Below, piece after piece: positions 3,529 to 61,945 of a DNA stretch of 64,000 bases. The notes below the pieces were generated by a model that saw only the letters and a program-made list of their open reading frames with translations, was not told the origin of the DNA and made no database searches. How positions within the stretch are numbered: position 1 is the stretch's first letter; every line of letters starts with the position of its first letter. A program made the translations under genes and the position numbers. This stretch comes from a virus: the IMG/VR virus record IMGVR_UViG_3300020437_000004, positions 60,854 to 124,853 of that record. One strand, given 5' to 3'.

Positions 3529-3557
3529 ATTATAACATTAAAAAAGAGACCTGTGGA
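3529..3557 (-). promoter_or_regulatory. Possible sigma-70 promoter for the HEGWH gene
   Basis: The minus strand has TCCACA, 17 bp, then a perfect TATAAT. The -35 box matches 4 of 6. It lies 24 bp or more upstream of the ATG at 3505 and overlaps the terminator of the preceding small gene. Confidence 0.4.
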
Positions 3558-3594: not shown

Positions 3595-3750
3595 CTAGTA
3601 GTCTAACACCTCCTTACAGATTCGTTTGCACGCTGACCTTGTATCTGTACACTCAACCAAGCACTCGTAGTAATCATCCTCGCGATGATTTTGGTTAGGC
3701 TCAAAAGGATGCCATGCCTCTAGTTGATTGTAAGGTAGTACGTTTTTCAT
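3595..3750 (-). CDS. Small cysteine-pattern protein, 51 aa
   Basis: The ATG at 3750 opens a 51-codon frame ending in TAG. The C-terminal half has the pattern DDYYECLVEC followed by CKRIC, giving paired cysteines (CxxxC twice). Small acidic proteins with this Cys pattern occur in cyanophages as far as I know, but no function is established. The gene is bracketed by two terminators and a late-promoter-like motif (3821-3827), so it can be transcribed alone. Confidence 0.65.
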   Translation of the reverse strand: MKNVLPYNQLEAWHPFEPNQNHREDDYYECLVECTDTRSACKRICKEVLDY

Positions 3751-3820
3751 AAGCATTTCCGTTGTCGGACTCATAACAAAGATGAGTTTGATTCATCTTC
3801 CTACCCTCTAATTCTACTAT

Positions 3821-3827
3821 TATTTAT
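3821..3827 (-). promoter_or_regulatory. Late-promoter-like motif ATAAATA
   Basis: The minus strand reads TATAAATAA immediately after the U-run of the psbA terminator and about 70 bp before the small gene starting at 3750. Confidence 0.45.
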
Positions 3828-3852
3828 AAAAAAAGGGGGCATTTCTGCCCCC
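3828..3852 (-). terminator. Rho-independent terminator after psbA
   Basis: On the minus strand a perfect GGGGGC/GCCCCC 6-bp stem with a 6-nt loop is followed by seven U residues. It closes the psbA plus small-peptide transcript. Confidence 0.9.
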
Positions 3853-5094: not shown

Positions 5095-5213
5095 TAATTG
5101 AGAGTTTAAGTAATAGTGCAGGGAACACTGAGTATAATATTCCTGTCTCACCCTCAGAGGCAGGTATTAGAGACTTGCTTTACATCCCCATAGGTCTCGG
5201 TTAATGGGATGTT

Positions 5214-5250
5214 ATGTAACGAAACCGTTACATGGTGTTGGGATCAACAC
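5214..5250 (-). promoter_or_regulatory. Two perfect inverted repeats in the psbA leader
   Basis: ATGTAACG-4-CGTTACAT (5214-5233) and GTGTTG-4-CAACAC (5235-5250) are adjacent perfect palindromes. They start just at the expected transcription start of the psbA promoter, so they would form two hairpins at the mRNA 5' end, or a tandem operator. Confidence 0.6.
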
Positions 5251-5257
5251 GCTTCTT

Positions 5258-5287
5258 AGTATATAGGCTTTTTGGTTATTCTGTCAA
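5258..5287 (-). promoter_or_regulatory. Sigma-70 promoter for psbA
   Basis: The minus strand reads TTGACA, 18 bp, TATACT. The -35 box is a perfect consensus and lies within the last codons of the upstream gene. It gives a leader of about 150 nt before the psbA ATG. Confidence 0.75.
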
Positions 5288-10843: not shown

Positions 10844-11013
10844 TCTGCGTAACCATCATCATCTCCATTGTATCTATACGACATACCTTCCTTAACTAGT
10901 GGATCGGAGACTACAGGTCTGTATGCATCCACATCTTCTTTAATAGCATCTTCCAAACTCTCTGCGAGGAGTTTAAGATTGTGTGCAATGAGTTTTACCT
11001 TTTGATAATTCAT
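10840..11013 (-). CDS. Small hypothetical protein, 57 aa
   Basis: The ATG at 11013 overlaps the talC stop (ATGA). An N-terminal helix (LIAHNLKLLAESLEDAIKED) is followed by an acidic tail (NGDDDGYAD). Its TGA overlaps the TTG start of the nuclease-like gene. Not recognised. Confidence 0.65.
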   Translation of the reverse strand: MNYQKVKLIAHNLKLLAESLEDAIKEDVDAYRPVVSDPLVKEGMSYRYNGDDDGYAD

Positions 11014-11672
11014 GGTTTAAGATTTTCTTGTAGGGTTTGCCAGTCCTTGTCAAATTGCTCTAGACCTTTATCGGTCAAGACATGCTTATACATTTTGTTA
11101 AACACGGCAGGAGGGATCGTGCAGATATCTGCACCAACTCCAAAACATCTACCGACCTGATGCACATCCCTAATAGATGCTGCTAGGATTTGTGTCTTTA
11201 CAGAATGCCTAGAGTATACATCAGAGATTGCTCTGATCAACTCAACACCTGAGACAGAATTATCATTCAATCTACCAACGAAAGGTGACACATAAGTAGC
11301 ACCTGCTTTCGCAGCAAGAATTGCTTGTGAGACTGAGAAGCAAAGAGTAACGTTAGTGGAGATACCATCCTCCGACAACTCTTTACATGCTTTAAGACCC
11401 TCTGGTGTGAGGGGCAATTTAATAGTTACACTAGGATGTATATCAATATAATCGTCTGCCATGTCTAGCATTTCTTCTGCTGTAGATCCAACGACCTCTG
11501 CAGAAACAGATGCTGTCCATCCAAACATGTTACAAATCTCAAGGATAACATCCCTAGGATCTTTCCCTTCTTTCATCATCAGGGAAGGGTTGGTAGTTAC
11601 ACCATCAATCAATCCAGTTGCAACTGCATCATAAACTACTTCGGTATTGCTACTGTCCAAAAATAGTTTCAT
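11010..11672 (-). CDS. talC: Transaldolase, TalC type
   Basis: This 220-residue protein matches the small TalC/fructose-6-phosphate-aldolase-like transaldolases: MKLFLDSSN, GVTTNPSLM, the Schiff-base Lys in VTIKLPLT, GATYVSPFVGRLND, and QILAASIRD. I started at MKLF (11672) rather than the frame's outer start. The enzyme moves three-carbon units between sugar phosphates. In cyanophages it is thought to push carbon through the pentose phosphate pathway, giving NADPH and ribose for nucleotide synthesis, which fits the nrdAB genes nearby. Confidence 0.95.
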   Translation of the reverse strand: MKLFLDSSNTEVVYDAVATGLIDGVTTNPSLMMKEGKDPRDVILEICNMFGWTASVSAEVVGSTAEEMLDMADDYIDIHPSVTIKLPLTPEGLKACKELSEDGISTNVTLCFSVSQAILAAKAGATYVSPFVGRLNDNSVSGVELIRAISDVYSRHSVKTQILAASIRDVHQVGRCFGVGADICTIPPAVFNKMYKHVLTDKGLEQFDKDWQTLQENLKP

Positions 11673-11693
11673 GACTCTCCTCATAGTTAAAGT

Positions 11694-11700
11694 TATTTAT
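11694..11700 (-). promoter_or_regulatory. Late-promoter-like motif ATAAATA before talC
   Basis: The minus strand reads AAATAAATAACT about 22 bp upstream of the talC ATG. Confidence 0.45.
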
Positions 11701-11705
11701 TTTCG

Positions 11706-11910
11706 TGAAAAAAAGGAGGGAGGTTGGGTTACTGTATACCAACAAAGAACGGGCATTACTACAGAGTAAATACGTCCTTGCCTACGACCTACTTGGTTGA
11801 GTAGTTCTGCTATTCCTAGCAGCGAGCACCACCTCTGTCGTATCACCTTATCCAGCCATATGCCAGAAAGATTATTCAGTCACTCCCAGTGTGCTGATCA
11901 GGCACAGATA
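11706..11910 (-). ncRNA. Candidate structured non-coding RNA
   Basis: This gap has no credible ORF but dense secondary structure. On the minus strand: TGTGC-7-GCACA; a long-range TACGAC/GTCGTA pair (11837-11842 with 11783-11788) enclosing two hairpins, CTGCTA-GGAA-TAGCAG and CTACT-6-AGTAG; then TTACT-4-AGTAA; then GTTGG-11-CCAAC followed nine bases later by seven U. It lies between a terminator and talC. A TTGACA in that terminator loop (11935-11940) with CATTAT 17 bp away could start it. Identity unknown; it may be a trans-acting RNA or a talC leader. Confidence 0.5.
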
Positions 11911-11921
11911 TATAATGGCAT

Positions 11922-11949
11922 AAAAAAAGGAGGGTGTCAACCCCTCCTT
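11922..11949 (-). terminator. Rho-independent terminator
   Basis: On the minus strand an 8-bp stem AAGGAGGG/CCCTCCTT with a 7-nt loop runs into seven U. It ends the transcript of the small genes at 11971-12407. Its loop contains TTGACA. Confidence 0.9.
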
Positions 11950-11970: not shown

Positions 11971-12156
11971 CTATTTTTCACCCTTTCTTGGATTCTTTAG
12001 ATACCAAGAAGGTGTGCCAAACACGTTTAGTGTAACCCATTTGGCATACGAAACACCTCTATAACACAGTAAAGCAAACACTTTATCTGGGTCATGTTTT
12101 TCTGGATCGTATTCTGGTAGACCGTAGTCCCATTCAATTTTAACTTTTAACCGCAT
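11971..12156 (-). CDS. Small YRG-containing protein, 61 aa
   Basis: I start at MRLKVKIEW (12156). The sequence has a cluster CYRGVSYAKW, similar to the YRG motif of the small protein at 12267-12407 and of cyanobacterial DUF4278 proteins. Basic C-terminus. Function unknown. It overlaps the preceding small membrane gene by 17 bp. Confidence 0.65.
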   Translation of the reverse strand: MRLKVKIEWDYGLPEYDPEKHDPDKVFALLCYRGVSYAKWVTLNVFGTPSWYLKNPRKGEK

Positions 12157-12262
12157 CGCTGCCACCCTTTAAAAAATGGAGGAAGCGAACTTCTTGGTAG
12201 ATGAAGTAGATGAATACAACAGATCCAATAGTTATCCAACTAACAGTCTGTAGTGCTTCCAT
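12140..12262 (-). CDS. Small membrane peptide, 40 aa
   Basis: The ATG at 12262 opens a 40-codon frame with one membrane helix (VSWITIGSVVFIYFIY) and a basic tail. It lies between two small YRG proteins in the same direction. Function unknown. Confidence 0.6.
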   Translation of the reverse strand: MEALQTVSWITIGSVVFIYFIYQEVRFLHFLKGGSDAVKS

Positions 12263-12656: not shown

Positions 12657-12664
12657 GGGATGAA

Positions 12665-12709
12665 CGCTCCGTTCCGCGACTTACTTGCGTCCCCTAAGGG
12701 ATGAACGAT
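12665..12709 (-). ncRNA. Downstream-peptide / glutamine-II-type riboswitch
   Basis: On the minus strand the element folds as CGTTC (P1), A, TCCC-TTAG-GGGA (P2), CGC-loop-GCG (P3) and closing GAACG (P1). The joining sequence GGGACGCAAGTAAG matches the conserved GACGxAAGUAGG core of glnA and downstream-peptide RNAs, which bind L-glutamine in cyanobacteria and their phages. It precedes a 60-residue ORF whose ATG is 9 bp downstream, as expected of this RNA class. Sequence match is from memory of the consensus. Confidence 0.75.
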
Positions 12710-12712
12710 ACA

Positions 12713-59173: not shown

Positions 59174-61945
59174 TTAGGTTGCAACCTCGGAGAAGCTAGC
59201 TCCAGTCCTTGTTGCAGTGAAGGTTAGTGTGATGAAGTTAATAGATCTAGTAGGTTTGATGAAGATCTCAGCATAAAACTCGCCTCTGTCAATAGACTCA
59301 GGTGGGTTGTTAGTGCTGTCGCAGACAACCAAGAAGTCAGTAACGCCACGACGTGACTGTACGGATCTCATGAAAGGTTCTACGATATTCTTGAAACCTT
59401 GGCGAGTAAACTCGTCATTCAATTCAAAGAGTTGTGTCTTAGCAGCTTGTGCGATCGCACCTTCCAAGACAAGGAAGAGACGTCTTACGTTGATTCTATC
59501 GAATGCAGACTGATAAGCGAGAGCGGTCTTGTCTCCGAAGAGGACGATACCTTCGCCAGGGAATGCAACGATTGGGTTAACTCTAGCAGCGTAAAGTCTA
59601 TCTCTGTGATCTTTAAGAGGAGAGTAAGCAAGTTTAACTGCGTTACGAAGTTGTCCTCTATTGAAACCTGCAGGTGAGAACCAAGGCTCCTGATTCAGAG
59701 TTGTGCTAAGTGTAAGACCTGCAACGTCTGCGTTACATGGGATGTAACGGTAAACATCGTTGTAGCGGTCATAGATGTATTTGTAGTTATTGTCAAATAC
59801 TGCGTAAGAAGAAGATGAAAGTTGATCAAAGAAACTTACAGTCTTGTCAACAATGTCTCCAACTGCAGAAACACCAACAACGTCACCTCTGTAAGGTGAG
59901 ATGAATGCCATGCAGTCTTTACGAGTGCTTGCGATATCGATAACCTTCTGTGCCTTAGCGATTGTGTCGCTGAGGTTACTCATTGAAGGTCCCATGAGGA
60001 CGTAATCTACTTCCTCAGTCTCAGCATCACTAAAGAGATCGTAACCTGCAAGTAGTGAAGGACGGTCAACAGTGAAACCATCTACACCACCTTGAAGGTG
60101 ATACTTAACGGTGCCGTTATTCTTAGTGCCGATAACAGGGATGCTGTTAGGATCAAGACCACTGATGTCGTCTCCACCATAAAGAGCATTATCCGCTTTG
60201 ATCAAGTCAAAGTCTCTGTTAGTTACGCTACCACCCCATGATCCGTCTGCTGTGCCAGAGCGGTCAAAGATGTTATTGGTCTCGTGAGATCCCCAGTAAA
60301 CATAGGAGGATTTATTCATCAAGACATCGACGTAGTAAAGTGACTCGCCTTGTGGAGACTTAGCGTCGGATGCCTTAGAAAGGTTAGTAAACTTCTCAAG
60401 CAATGAGCCAGGTGTGCCTGTCAAACCTCCGTCACCATCAAGGATGAGGACGTGCACGAGGTCTCTGTATCCACCACGGTCATCTGCCCATGCAGAAGTG
60501 CCAGGACGAGGAGCGATGTTGATCCACTTCTCGTTGTAACCATACTGTCTGCTCTCGTAGTCACTACCGATTGCAATAGCAGATACAGTAGCAGCGTTTC
60601 CGTCAGAAACAGTTTGGTTTGCTTGGAAGAGAGGAGAAGTCTTGTTAAGAGAAACTCTCAATTCTCTAGAGATAGACAAGATCTTACCAGATGTGCCAGT
60701 AGCAGATCCAGGTGATCCTGCATTGTTTGCCAACTCAGTAATAGTATCTCCAACTTCCCAGAAGTCAGATGCAGTGCTATCAATGCTTACTTCAAGTTTC
60801 TGTGTTTCCTTGTCGAAAGCAACAACGCCACCAGTGATGTTACCAGAAAGACCGTTGTAGAAGTTACCTGCTTTGAAGTTACCCACTAGAGTGCTATTCT
60901 CTTCAAGAGTAATAACAACAGTGTAGGAGTAAACCTTACCGAAGATGTTAGCAGCAGAGTAAGAGATTTCAGCACCAGATGCGAATTCCCACTCAGCAGA
61001 AGATGGTTGTGCAAGATAAAGTACTTGATCAGCACCTGCATCAGTCATTACGACTCTAATGCTGTTGCCGAATTGACCAGGAGTCTTAGATGCCCACTTC
61101 CAGTTATTAGAAGCATCCTTAACAGTTGACTCATATGCATCAAGATTCTTAATCAAAGGAGCAGTAATACCAGTAGAGGTTTGCTCGTTGATTTGAGTCT
61201 TGTTAGAAGAAACCGTTAGGAGAGTAACAGTAGATCCATCAGTGTGTGCTGCTGCAGTAGAGCTCAATGCTGAGCGAGTAACAGTAAGGTCGTTACCTGC
61301 AACACCAGTTACTTGGAGAATCTCATCGTCAATTCTAATATAGGAGTTAGTACCTGCTCCAAGAGTTGCTACAGAAGCAACAGTAAGAGTGGTATCAGCA
61401 TCAGTAAATGTAGATCCTTCGTTGATGGTAGAAGTGCTACCTGCAGTCTCGATCAAAGTGACTTGTGATCCTGCTGCGTGAGAAACCCCAGATGTCTGAA
61501 GTTGTCCACGAGTAACAACAACGTCGTTACCAGACACAGACCCAATGGTCATGATCTCTGCGTCAATCAAAAGAAGATCAGCGACATCAAAGTCAGTGGT
61601 AGACAATACTGTGAGTGTAGTGTCGTTAGCACTAAAAGTAGTATTAGTAAACTGTGCAGTGTCAATAGCATTCTTAAGTGAATTGCTCATTGCACGGACA
61701 ATCTTCATGGTGCCACCATAAAGAAGGTATTGTGCTGCACTAAACCAATACTCAAAGTTTGAATTACTTGGTCTACCGAAAATTGCGAGAAGCTCCTTCT
61801 CACTAGTTACCGAGACGATTTGCTCTACTGGTCCTTTCTCAAAACTTCCAACCATTGCTGCTACGTTATCTACGGTAGCGTTAACAACGTTAGTGAGATC
61901 TCTTTCCAGTACAACAACACCTGGTGAAAGTTGCGTTGATGCCAT
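59174..61945 (-). CDS. gp18: Tail sheath protein, T4 gp18-like
   Basis: At 923 residues it is much longer than T4 gp18 (659). The C-terminal sheath core is clear: LYAARVNPIVAFPGEGIVLFGDKTAL, RINVRRLFLVLEGAIAQAAK, FEFNDEFTR-like region and PTRSINFITLTF. An insertion near the N-terminus contains two tandem repeats of about 65 residues (103-166 and 179-244; TFSANDTTLTV and TFTDADTTLTV). The sheath contracts to drive the tube through the host envelope. Confidence 0.96.
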   Translation of the reverse strand: MASTQLSPGVVVLERDLTNVVNATVDNVAAMVGSFEKGPVEQIVSVTSEKELLAIFGRPSNSNFEYWFSAAQYLLYGGTMKIVRAMSNSLKNAIDTAQFTNTTFSANDTTLTVLSTTDFDVADLLLIDAEIMTIGSVSGNDVVVTRGQLQTSGVSHAAGSQVTLIETAGSTSTINEGSTFTDADTTLTVASVATLGAGTNSYIRIDDEILQVTGVAGNDLTVTRSALSSTAAAHTDGSTVTLLTVSSNKTQINEQTSTGITAPLIKNLDAYESTVKDASNNWKWASKTPGQFGNSIRVVMTDAGADQVLYLAQPSSAEWEFASGAEISYSAANIFGKVYSYTVVITLEENSTLVGNFKAGNFYNGLSGNITGGVVAFDKETQKLEVSIDSTASDFWEVGDTITELANNAGSPGSATGTSGKILSISRELRVSLNKTSPLFQANQTVSDGNAATVSAIAIGSDYESRQYGYNEKWINIAPRPGTSAWADDRGGYRDLVHVLILDGDGGLTGTPGSLLEKFTNLSKASDAKSPQGESLYYVDVLMNKSSYVYWGSHETNNIFDRSGTADGSWGGSVTNRDFDLIKADNALYGGDDISGLDPNSIPVIGTKNNGTVKYHLQGGVDGFTVDRPSLLAGYDLFSDAETEEVDYVLMGPSMSNLSDTIAKAQKVIDIASTRKDCMAFISPYRGDVVGVSAVGDIVDKTVSFFDQLSSSSYAVFDNNYKYIYDRYNDVYRYIPCNADVAGLTLSTTLNQEPWFSPAGFNRGQLRNAVKLAYSPLKDHRDRLYAARVNPIVAFPGEGIVLFGDKTALAYQSAFDRINVRRLFLVLEGAIAQAAKTQLFELNDEFTRQGFKNIVEPFMRSVQSRRGVTDFLVVCDSTNNPPESIDRGEFYAEIFIKPTRSINFITLTFTATRTGASFSEVAT

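Follow-up and report, generated by a model that had tools for sequence, protein, structure and literature searches.

What is the densely folded stretch that lies between an intrinsic terminator and talC in the virus record IMGVR_UViG_3300020437_000004, and on what does it act? We analyzed 64,000 nt of this record (positions 60,854 to 124,853; hereafter, the window). A sequence-only reading had proposed an independent small RNA or a structured talC leader, with a promoter of its own, of a class that it did not recognize. A cmscan search of the window returned a full-length match to manA RNA (RF01745, model positions 1–192) at 11906–11713 (–), with a score of 182.6 bits against a gathering cut-off of 55.2 (E = 2.9e-49), and the sequence makes it practically certain that the window RNA is manA RNA. 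The structured RNA therefore stood, as did its own promoter, for which promoter-like sites in relatives speak; the unrecognized class did not, since RF01745 is known and, according to the available part of Weinberg 2010 (PMC2864571), was described in that year from marine metagenomes, cyanophages and gamma-proteobacteria. The minus-strand elements that had been named (hairpins, long-range pair, terminator, TTGACA and U7 run) were all located in the sequence, and TACGAC/GTCGTA, CTGCTA-GGAA-TAGCAG and CTACT-6-AGTAG proved to be consensus helices of RF01745. The features are collected in Table 1.

Table 1. Features around the manA RNA and talC, in window coordinates
Feature	Position	Strand	Basis
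Intrinsic terminator hairpin of the upstream transcript, then U tract; the loop holds the –35 box	11927-11949	-	8 pairs, loop 7, T tail
–35 box TTGACA	11935-11940	-	in terminator loop; promoter scan
–10 box CATTAT, spacer 17	11912-11917	-	promoter scan
Predicted transcription start, +/-2 nt, inside P1	11905	-	inferred from spacing to –10 box
manA RNA, RF01745	11713-11906	-	cmscan
P1 hairpin	11890-11906	-	Rfam consensus
Pseudoknot 5' strand GGGAG	11883-11887	-	pairs in 65/65 rows
Pseudoknot 3' strand CUCCC	11718-11722	-	pairs in 65/65 rows
Multibranch helix TACGAC (11842-11837)/GTCGTA (11788-11783), enclosing three hairpins	11783-11842	-	Rfam consensus
Hairpin CTGCTA-GGAA-TAGCAG	11807-11822	-	sequence, Rfam consensus
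Hairpin CTACT-6-AGTAG	11789-11804	-	sequence, Rfam consensus
Long hairpin whose loop has CUGU (11764-11761), able to kiss ACAG (11735-11732) in the hairpin that follows	11745-11779	-	kissing covariation
Last hairpin GUUGG...CCAAC, directly 5' of pseudoknot strand	11723-11743	-	covariation
U7 run directly 3' of pseudoknot; possible termination/attenuation point	11708-11714	-	sequence; function inferred
AATAAATA, match to late-promoter motif NATAAATA, between manA and talC	11694-11701	-	motif search
Ribosome-binding-site-like GAGGAG 5' of talC	11677-11682	-	sequence
talC, transaldolase / fructose-6-phosphate aldolase family	11010-11672	-	Pfam PF00923, E 7.7e-57

The start of talC lies 41 nt past the last RF01745 model position, which makes manA a potential 5' UTR, and a second in-frame ATG for talC is present at 11684. 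The relatives of this region are cyanophages, and the closest-covered named phage is P-TIM40 (84% of the query, 80.6% identity). The 124,853-base virus record contains one manA copy. In its full-length match, helices, pseudoknot, marine cyanophage setting and position before a fructose-metabolism gene, the window copy agrees with manA as presented in the available part of PMC2864571, and nothing sets it apart; it is an ordinary family member, and it is the comparative picture that deserves attention. Short ORFs listed across the gap, for example at 11697–11846 (–; 49 aa), are taken as spurious. Small hypothetical ORFs are likewise annotated across manA in P-SSM4 (L242 2562-2735), P-HM2 (L245 2558-2662), P-HM1 (L247 2452-2628) and S-SSM5 (L250 2505-2711), and these are probably not genes.

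For this comparison, at least 120 viral loci were collected using a pattern of 14 fixed bases inside the RNA, and nhmmer seeded with the window sequence found the RNA in 106 of the 120 listed; the last round gave 109 hits in 108 loci, including the window's own record (L001) and L237. We added 13 named phages with a blastn hit, drawn from 39 matching records, many of them duplicates of one phage. Without L001, the set comprised 121 elements, 117 of which had 90 nt of upstream sequence, and a larger set, enriched by a scan of viral contigs for the K hairpin described below, held 183 full-length elements. Because the pattern that chose the loci lies inside the RNA, that stretch is conserved by choice, while the promoter and 3' flank are not; as the loci are related, the counts are not independent. 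ORF calls in contigs were mechanical, and those of L049, L088, L089 and L240 were corrected by hand before the final neighbor count. On the host side, at least 118 genome-contig stretches with the pattern yielded a single nhmmer hit, a weak one (Shewanella, L237, E = 3.4e-4), in which manA was absent from the cmscan list at E up to 1, and the gamma-proteobacterial copies of Weinberg 2010 were not recovered among the matches listed from genome contigs.

We examined the fold in 65 elements dereplicated from the 183, using the 49 Rfam pairs outside P1. Covariation, whose absence would have spoken against the proposed fold, was strongly present: the Rfam pairs were standard in 92.8% of cells, compared with 81.9% in shuffles, pairing fell to 35–48% when one strand was slid by 1–3 columns, double-sided changes occurred at least once in 31 of the 49 pairs, and none of 500 shuffles reached any of five covariation measures. 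All six pairs of the multibranch helix changed on both sides, and the last hairpin was paired in 100% of cells with double changes in four of its five pairs; two short helices were weak (61.9% and 70.8% of cells paired). The pseudoknot, which carries a question mark in the figure legend of Weinberg 2010 (PMC2864571, seen in part), was paired in every row, with A-U replaced by U-A in four. Covariation in these sequences thus backs the manA fold, pseudoknot included. The kissing contact between the loops of the last two hairpins was paired in 97.7% of cells with 18 double changes, with the caveat that 25 of 500 shuffles reached two of the five measures; it is probably not new, because the available part of Rivas 2020 has a toy alignment derived from manA with an alternative helix between two hairpin loops. 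At the P1 site, a hairpin of at least 4 pairs was found in 183/183 elements with 68 different stems, a count made without a chance control. The conserved fold is large and includes invariant unpaired stretches. Folding energy, which the sequence-only reading had put forward as a check, did not bear the fold out: the nested fold of the window RNA had a minimum free energy of –56.5 kcal/mol (z = +0.80), and 157 of 200 shuffles were at least as stable. Folding energy alone would therefore miss manA and is of no use as evidence.

The suggestion that TTGACA in the terminator loop serves as a promoter gained strength from the relatives. Among the matches listed, a near-consensus promoter of the sigma-70 type, taken as a TTGACA/TATAAT pair matching at 10 or more of 12 positions, was present upstream of 113 of the 117 elements (score 11 or 12 in 106 of those 113), whereas 5.6% of 1075 positions drawn at random from these loci reached that score. 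Exact TTGACA occurred in 100 of the 114 listed elements scoring at least 9/12, and a promoter-like site was present in 178 of the 180 elements listed from the larger set. In 105 of these 178, the –10 box ended 5 nt before P1, the commonest distance, which would place the start at the first few bases of P1. By a strict test, the –35 box lay inside the terminator hairpin loop in 42 of the 117 elements listed, the window included. From these sequence patterns, the TTGACA is very likely the manA promoter, and the view that manA forms the 5' end of its own transcript appears well supported. The window promoter has 10/12 matches and would accordingly be weaker than in most relatives. Between the window and P-TIM40, the terminator–promoter block was identical at 47/49 positions and talC at 572/660, as against 112/173 in the RNA body, as if two old RNA alleles can sit behind one promoter. 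A small ORF just upstream of the terminator (11971–12165, –) had 0/195 positions aligned in P-TIM40.

Four of the 117 elements listed scored below 10 (L059, L072, L010 and L071). Read by eye, L059 contains a TTGACA that the scan left without a good –10 partner, and in L072 the element comes after a tRNA-like sequence. On the minus strand of L010 and L071, P1 adjoins a tRNA-like 3' end without an intervening promoter, and tRNA processing might therefore generate the 5' end in these two. No upstream tRNA was reported by ARAGORN in a set that included L072 but not the truncated L010 and L071. Elsewhere in the window, near 3557 (–), a terminator-like hairpin with a T run is directly followed by TATAAT, which suggests that manA is not the only place where this phage fuses a terminator with a promoter.

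On the 3' side, the elements were less uniform. Directly behind the pseudoknot, a U run was found in 45 of the 107 elements listed and a K hairpin in 21 (both in 18), and six of the 107 ran directly into a tRNA located within 130 nt. Terminators follow some of the copies listed, and many others have no terminator before the next gene; in the window, the 3' side has the U7 run, and the scan found no canonical terminator hairpin. A ribosome-site core was present in 11 of the 50 listed genes within 60 nt, the window talC being scored as lacking one because the caller took the upstream ATG. A universal anti-ribosome-site switch, suggested by the complementarity of the 3' strand CCUCCC to GGAGG, was considered and rejected as not general, given these 11 of 50. 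Between the RNA and the start codon, NATAAATA or CTAAATA occurred in 30 of 95 listed cases, whereas mononucleotide shuffles gave 3.6 on average and never more than 10 in 200 draws. The available part of PMC2984593 reports NATAAATA as the late promoter of S-PM2 and others and describes genes with both early and late promoters in these phages. A late motif behind manA suggests that manA is carried by early transcripts and that late ones may bypass it.

The K hairpin (AGACCUAAGAUGCAACU...AGUSGGGCAGAUGGUCU) lies directly behind manA in some uncultured lineages; L019 3492-3530 is an example. In the first set, 22 of the 25 CCTAAGATGC occurrences among the matches listed were directly behind manA. 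A second scan of viral contigs with a K-hairpin 15-mer gave at least 99 new loci; among the 99 listed, 88 had manA directly upstream, one lay at an edge, and 10 were without manA and, by eye, lacked the 3' half of the hairpin. The 32 distinct copies share a single hairpin fold, interrupted by internal loops, in which two pairs show changes on both sides; its conserved 5' half is fixed by the search pattern. It had no Rfam match at E up to 1 in four bearing loci, and the pattern used did not find it in any of the 13 named phages. Since U's do not always follow it, the hairpin is probably more than a terminator.

On balance, we lean slightly towards the reading that an early talC transcript has manA as its structured 5' end, a portable leader that would act on the gene behind it. 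In this mechanism, host polymerase would terminate the upstream transcript at the hairpin and, inside the same 45 bp, initiate another, which would begin at P1 and form a compact domain that the GGGAG/CUCCC pseudoknot closes. This RNA would either stop near the U7 run or read on into talC, so that manA could gate or protect the early expression of talC. Transcription from the NATAAATA site late in infection would yield a talC mRNA that lacks manA. The RF01745 match and its fold, the promoter-like site fused with the terminator on the 5' side, talC directly on the 3' side and the late motif between them are consistent with such a leader, as are the promoter-like sites of the relatives with their spacing to P1. 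Against it stand the lack of a uniform expression platform (U run, K hairpin or tRNA in the 107 elements listed, and a ribosome-site core in 11 of the 50 genes, as above), and P-HM1 and MED4-213, in which a terminator and a late-promoter motif lie between manA and the next gene. HK022 put, a promoter-proximal phage RNA that acts on its own transcript, is an analogy for how such a leader might work, and for nothing beyond that.

The neighboring genes favor this leader in one respect. Among the matches listed, gp32 came first downstream in 19/106 rows and upstream in 0/103, and talC or PMM was first or second downstream in 24/106 and upstream in 0/103; since gp32, talC and PMM sit downstream and never upstream, the RNA would seem to act on the gene behind it. 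HSP20 was found on both sides (11 downstream, 4 upstream). Neighboring genes in the same listed matches were co-oriented with manA in 104/108 cases downstream and 102/114 upstream; the raw contrast in opposite orientation (4/108 versus 12/114) gave P = 0.068, and P = 0.0027 only if three of the four opposite downstream ORF calls are taken as spurious, as their sequences suggest, so that a bias significant only after hand correction counts against the leader. The identity of the neighbors was highly variable: with corrected ORFs, the first downstream genes fell into 34 families in 106 rows and the upstream genes into 44 in 103, and without correction the counts were 37 in 108 downstream and 46 in 114 upstream, the 101 pairs then being of 71 kinds (all among the matches listed). 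On a weak tree of 108 RNA bodies (49 of 98 inner branches open), no fewer than 72 changes of downstream family were needed (shuffled mean 81.2, sd 1.7) and 77 of upstream family (shuffled mean 85.6, sd 1.8), and these near-shuffled counts suggest that the position of manA is only loosely inherited.

This mobility, together with copy number, bears on a second explanation, which we rate as possible and somewhat unlikely: manA would be an autonomous, trans-acting, single-copy phage RNA gene with an early host or phage target, the downstream gene being incidental. One copy each was found in 14 of 20 complete named cyanophages, 13 of the 14 (all except P-RSM1) having been pre-chosen by a blastn hit; no manA was found in ACG-2014b, S-SM1, S-RS29, ACG-2014a, Syn9 and S-PM2 under stricter search filters, which lose weak matches. 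Under the same filters, six large IMG/VR records had one copy each, and a seventh had a below-cut-off match. One copy per genome in 14/14 carriers, combined with a changing downstream gene, is ill-suited to a gene-specific regulator. Two copies in a genome would speak against a single-copy RNA gene, and the only such case among the matches listed is L091, a 4756-base contig with two different copies (136-312 and 3656-3833) and a possible assembly error.

Relocation between close relatives, with reciprocal empty sites, also fits an RNA acting in trans. In P-HM1 and MED4-213, the RNA follows gp23 and the pebS–gp32 gap is empty, whereas in P-HM2 the RNA lies in the pebS–gp32 gap before gp32 and the gap after gp23 is empty. 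The gp32 promoter is kept with the RNA (P-HM2) and without it (P-HM1, MED4-213), and in P-HM2 the RNA sits between this promoter and gp32, exactly behind the –10 region, a placement that speaks for the leader. After gp23, P-HM1 and MED4-213 have a terminator–promoter, the RNA and a second terminator, which places the P-HM1 copy between two terminators; at the matching place, P-HM2 has a stretch resembling a hairpin, with a T run, and all three phages continue with CTAAATA and the next gene. Identical RNA bodies also occur in unlike places: L041 (followed by tRNA-Asn, then talC) matches P-SSM2 (regA before, a gene annotated purL behind), and L042 (PurS behind) matches P-SSM7 (ferredoxin before, a gene of unknown function behind). 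The near-exclusive pairing of the K hairpin with manA among the matches listed, the six of 107 that run directly into a tRNA gene and the promoter-like site in 113 of the 117 point the same way, but the directional link to gp32, talC and PMM and the numerous copies that lack a terminator ahead of the next gene do not. The stable small RNAs beside the tRNA genes of phage T4, likened here by description, are an analogy of working only.

A sugar-phosphate riboswitch (for fructose-6-phosphate, mannose-6-phosphate or a relative) controlling talC, PMM and mannose-phosphate isomerase genes seems improbable. Its appeal lies in the class name, which suggests such control, in the large fold with invariant unpaired stretches, and in the rating "y" (probably a riboswitch) in the available part of Weinberg 2010 (PMC2864571), since when manA has been a probable riboswitch with no ligand named there. 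The downstream representatives do include TAL_FSA, PMM and MannoseP_isomer by Pfam, but also gp32, PurS, HSP20 and DUF1825, one large family had no Pfam match, many further downstream genes are unknown, and no common expression platform was seen among the matches listed. This gene list agrees with that in the part of PMC2864571 consulted, which contained no mention of gp32 or capsid-region neighbors. A chance fold of an intergenic gap, with which the unremarkable folding energy would agree, is refuted by the Rfam E-value and the covariation and has a negligible probability.

Comparison of many copies suggests that manA is a portable RNA module that carries a promoter of its own and is bound to no single gene. 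We tentatively entertain that it has been misfiled as a gene-specific leader and may instead be a single-copy, relocatable RNA gene that acts in trans early in the infection of ocean cyanobacteria and can also serve as the leader of any gene before which it lands, with a promoter often fused into a terminator, a P1-to-pseudoknot body and, in some lineages, a second hairpin. Promoter coupling, single copy, relocation and the second hairpin were not mentioned in the available part of Weinberg 2010 (PMC2864571), nor was such an RNA in that of the P-HM2 RNA-seq paper. If manA is not tied to the metabolism of one gene, ligand hunts guided by its neighbors would be misdirected. P-HM1 and P-HM2, whose records bear the same species name and the same host strain (Prochlorococcus MED4), carry the RNA at different sites and form a natural pair for comparison.

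Besides manA, the Rfam matches above cut-off in the window were one tRNA and one PhotoRC-II. According to the available part of PMC2864571, wcaG RNA (RF01761) and PhotoRC-II (RF01717) are also structured RNAs common to marine metagenomes and cyanophages, and both are families different from manA; wcaG had no match above cut-off in the window by cmscan. The glutamine riboswitches RF01739 and RF01704, also present in cyanophages, are unrelated small aptamers, and a stretch resembling them at 12663–12710 (–) had overlapping below-cut-off matches to RF01739 (30 bits, cut-off 35) and RF01704 (26.2 bits, cut-off 33). PhotoRC-II lies at 5129–5224 (–; 64 bits, cut-off 39), and a strong promoter-like site starts near it, at 5287 (–).
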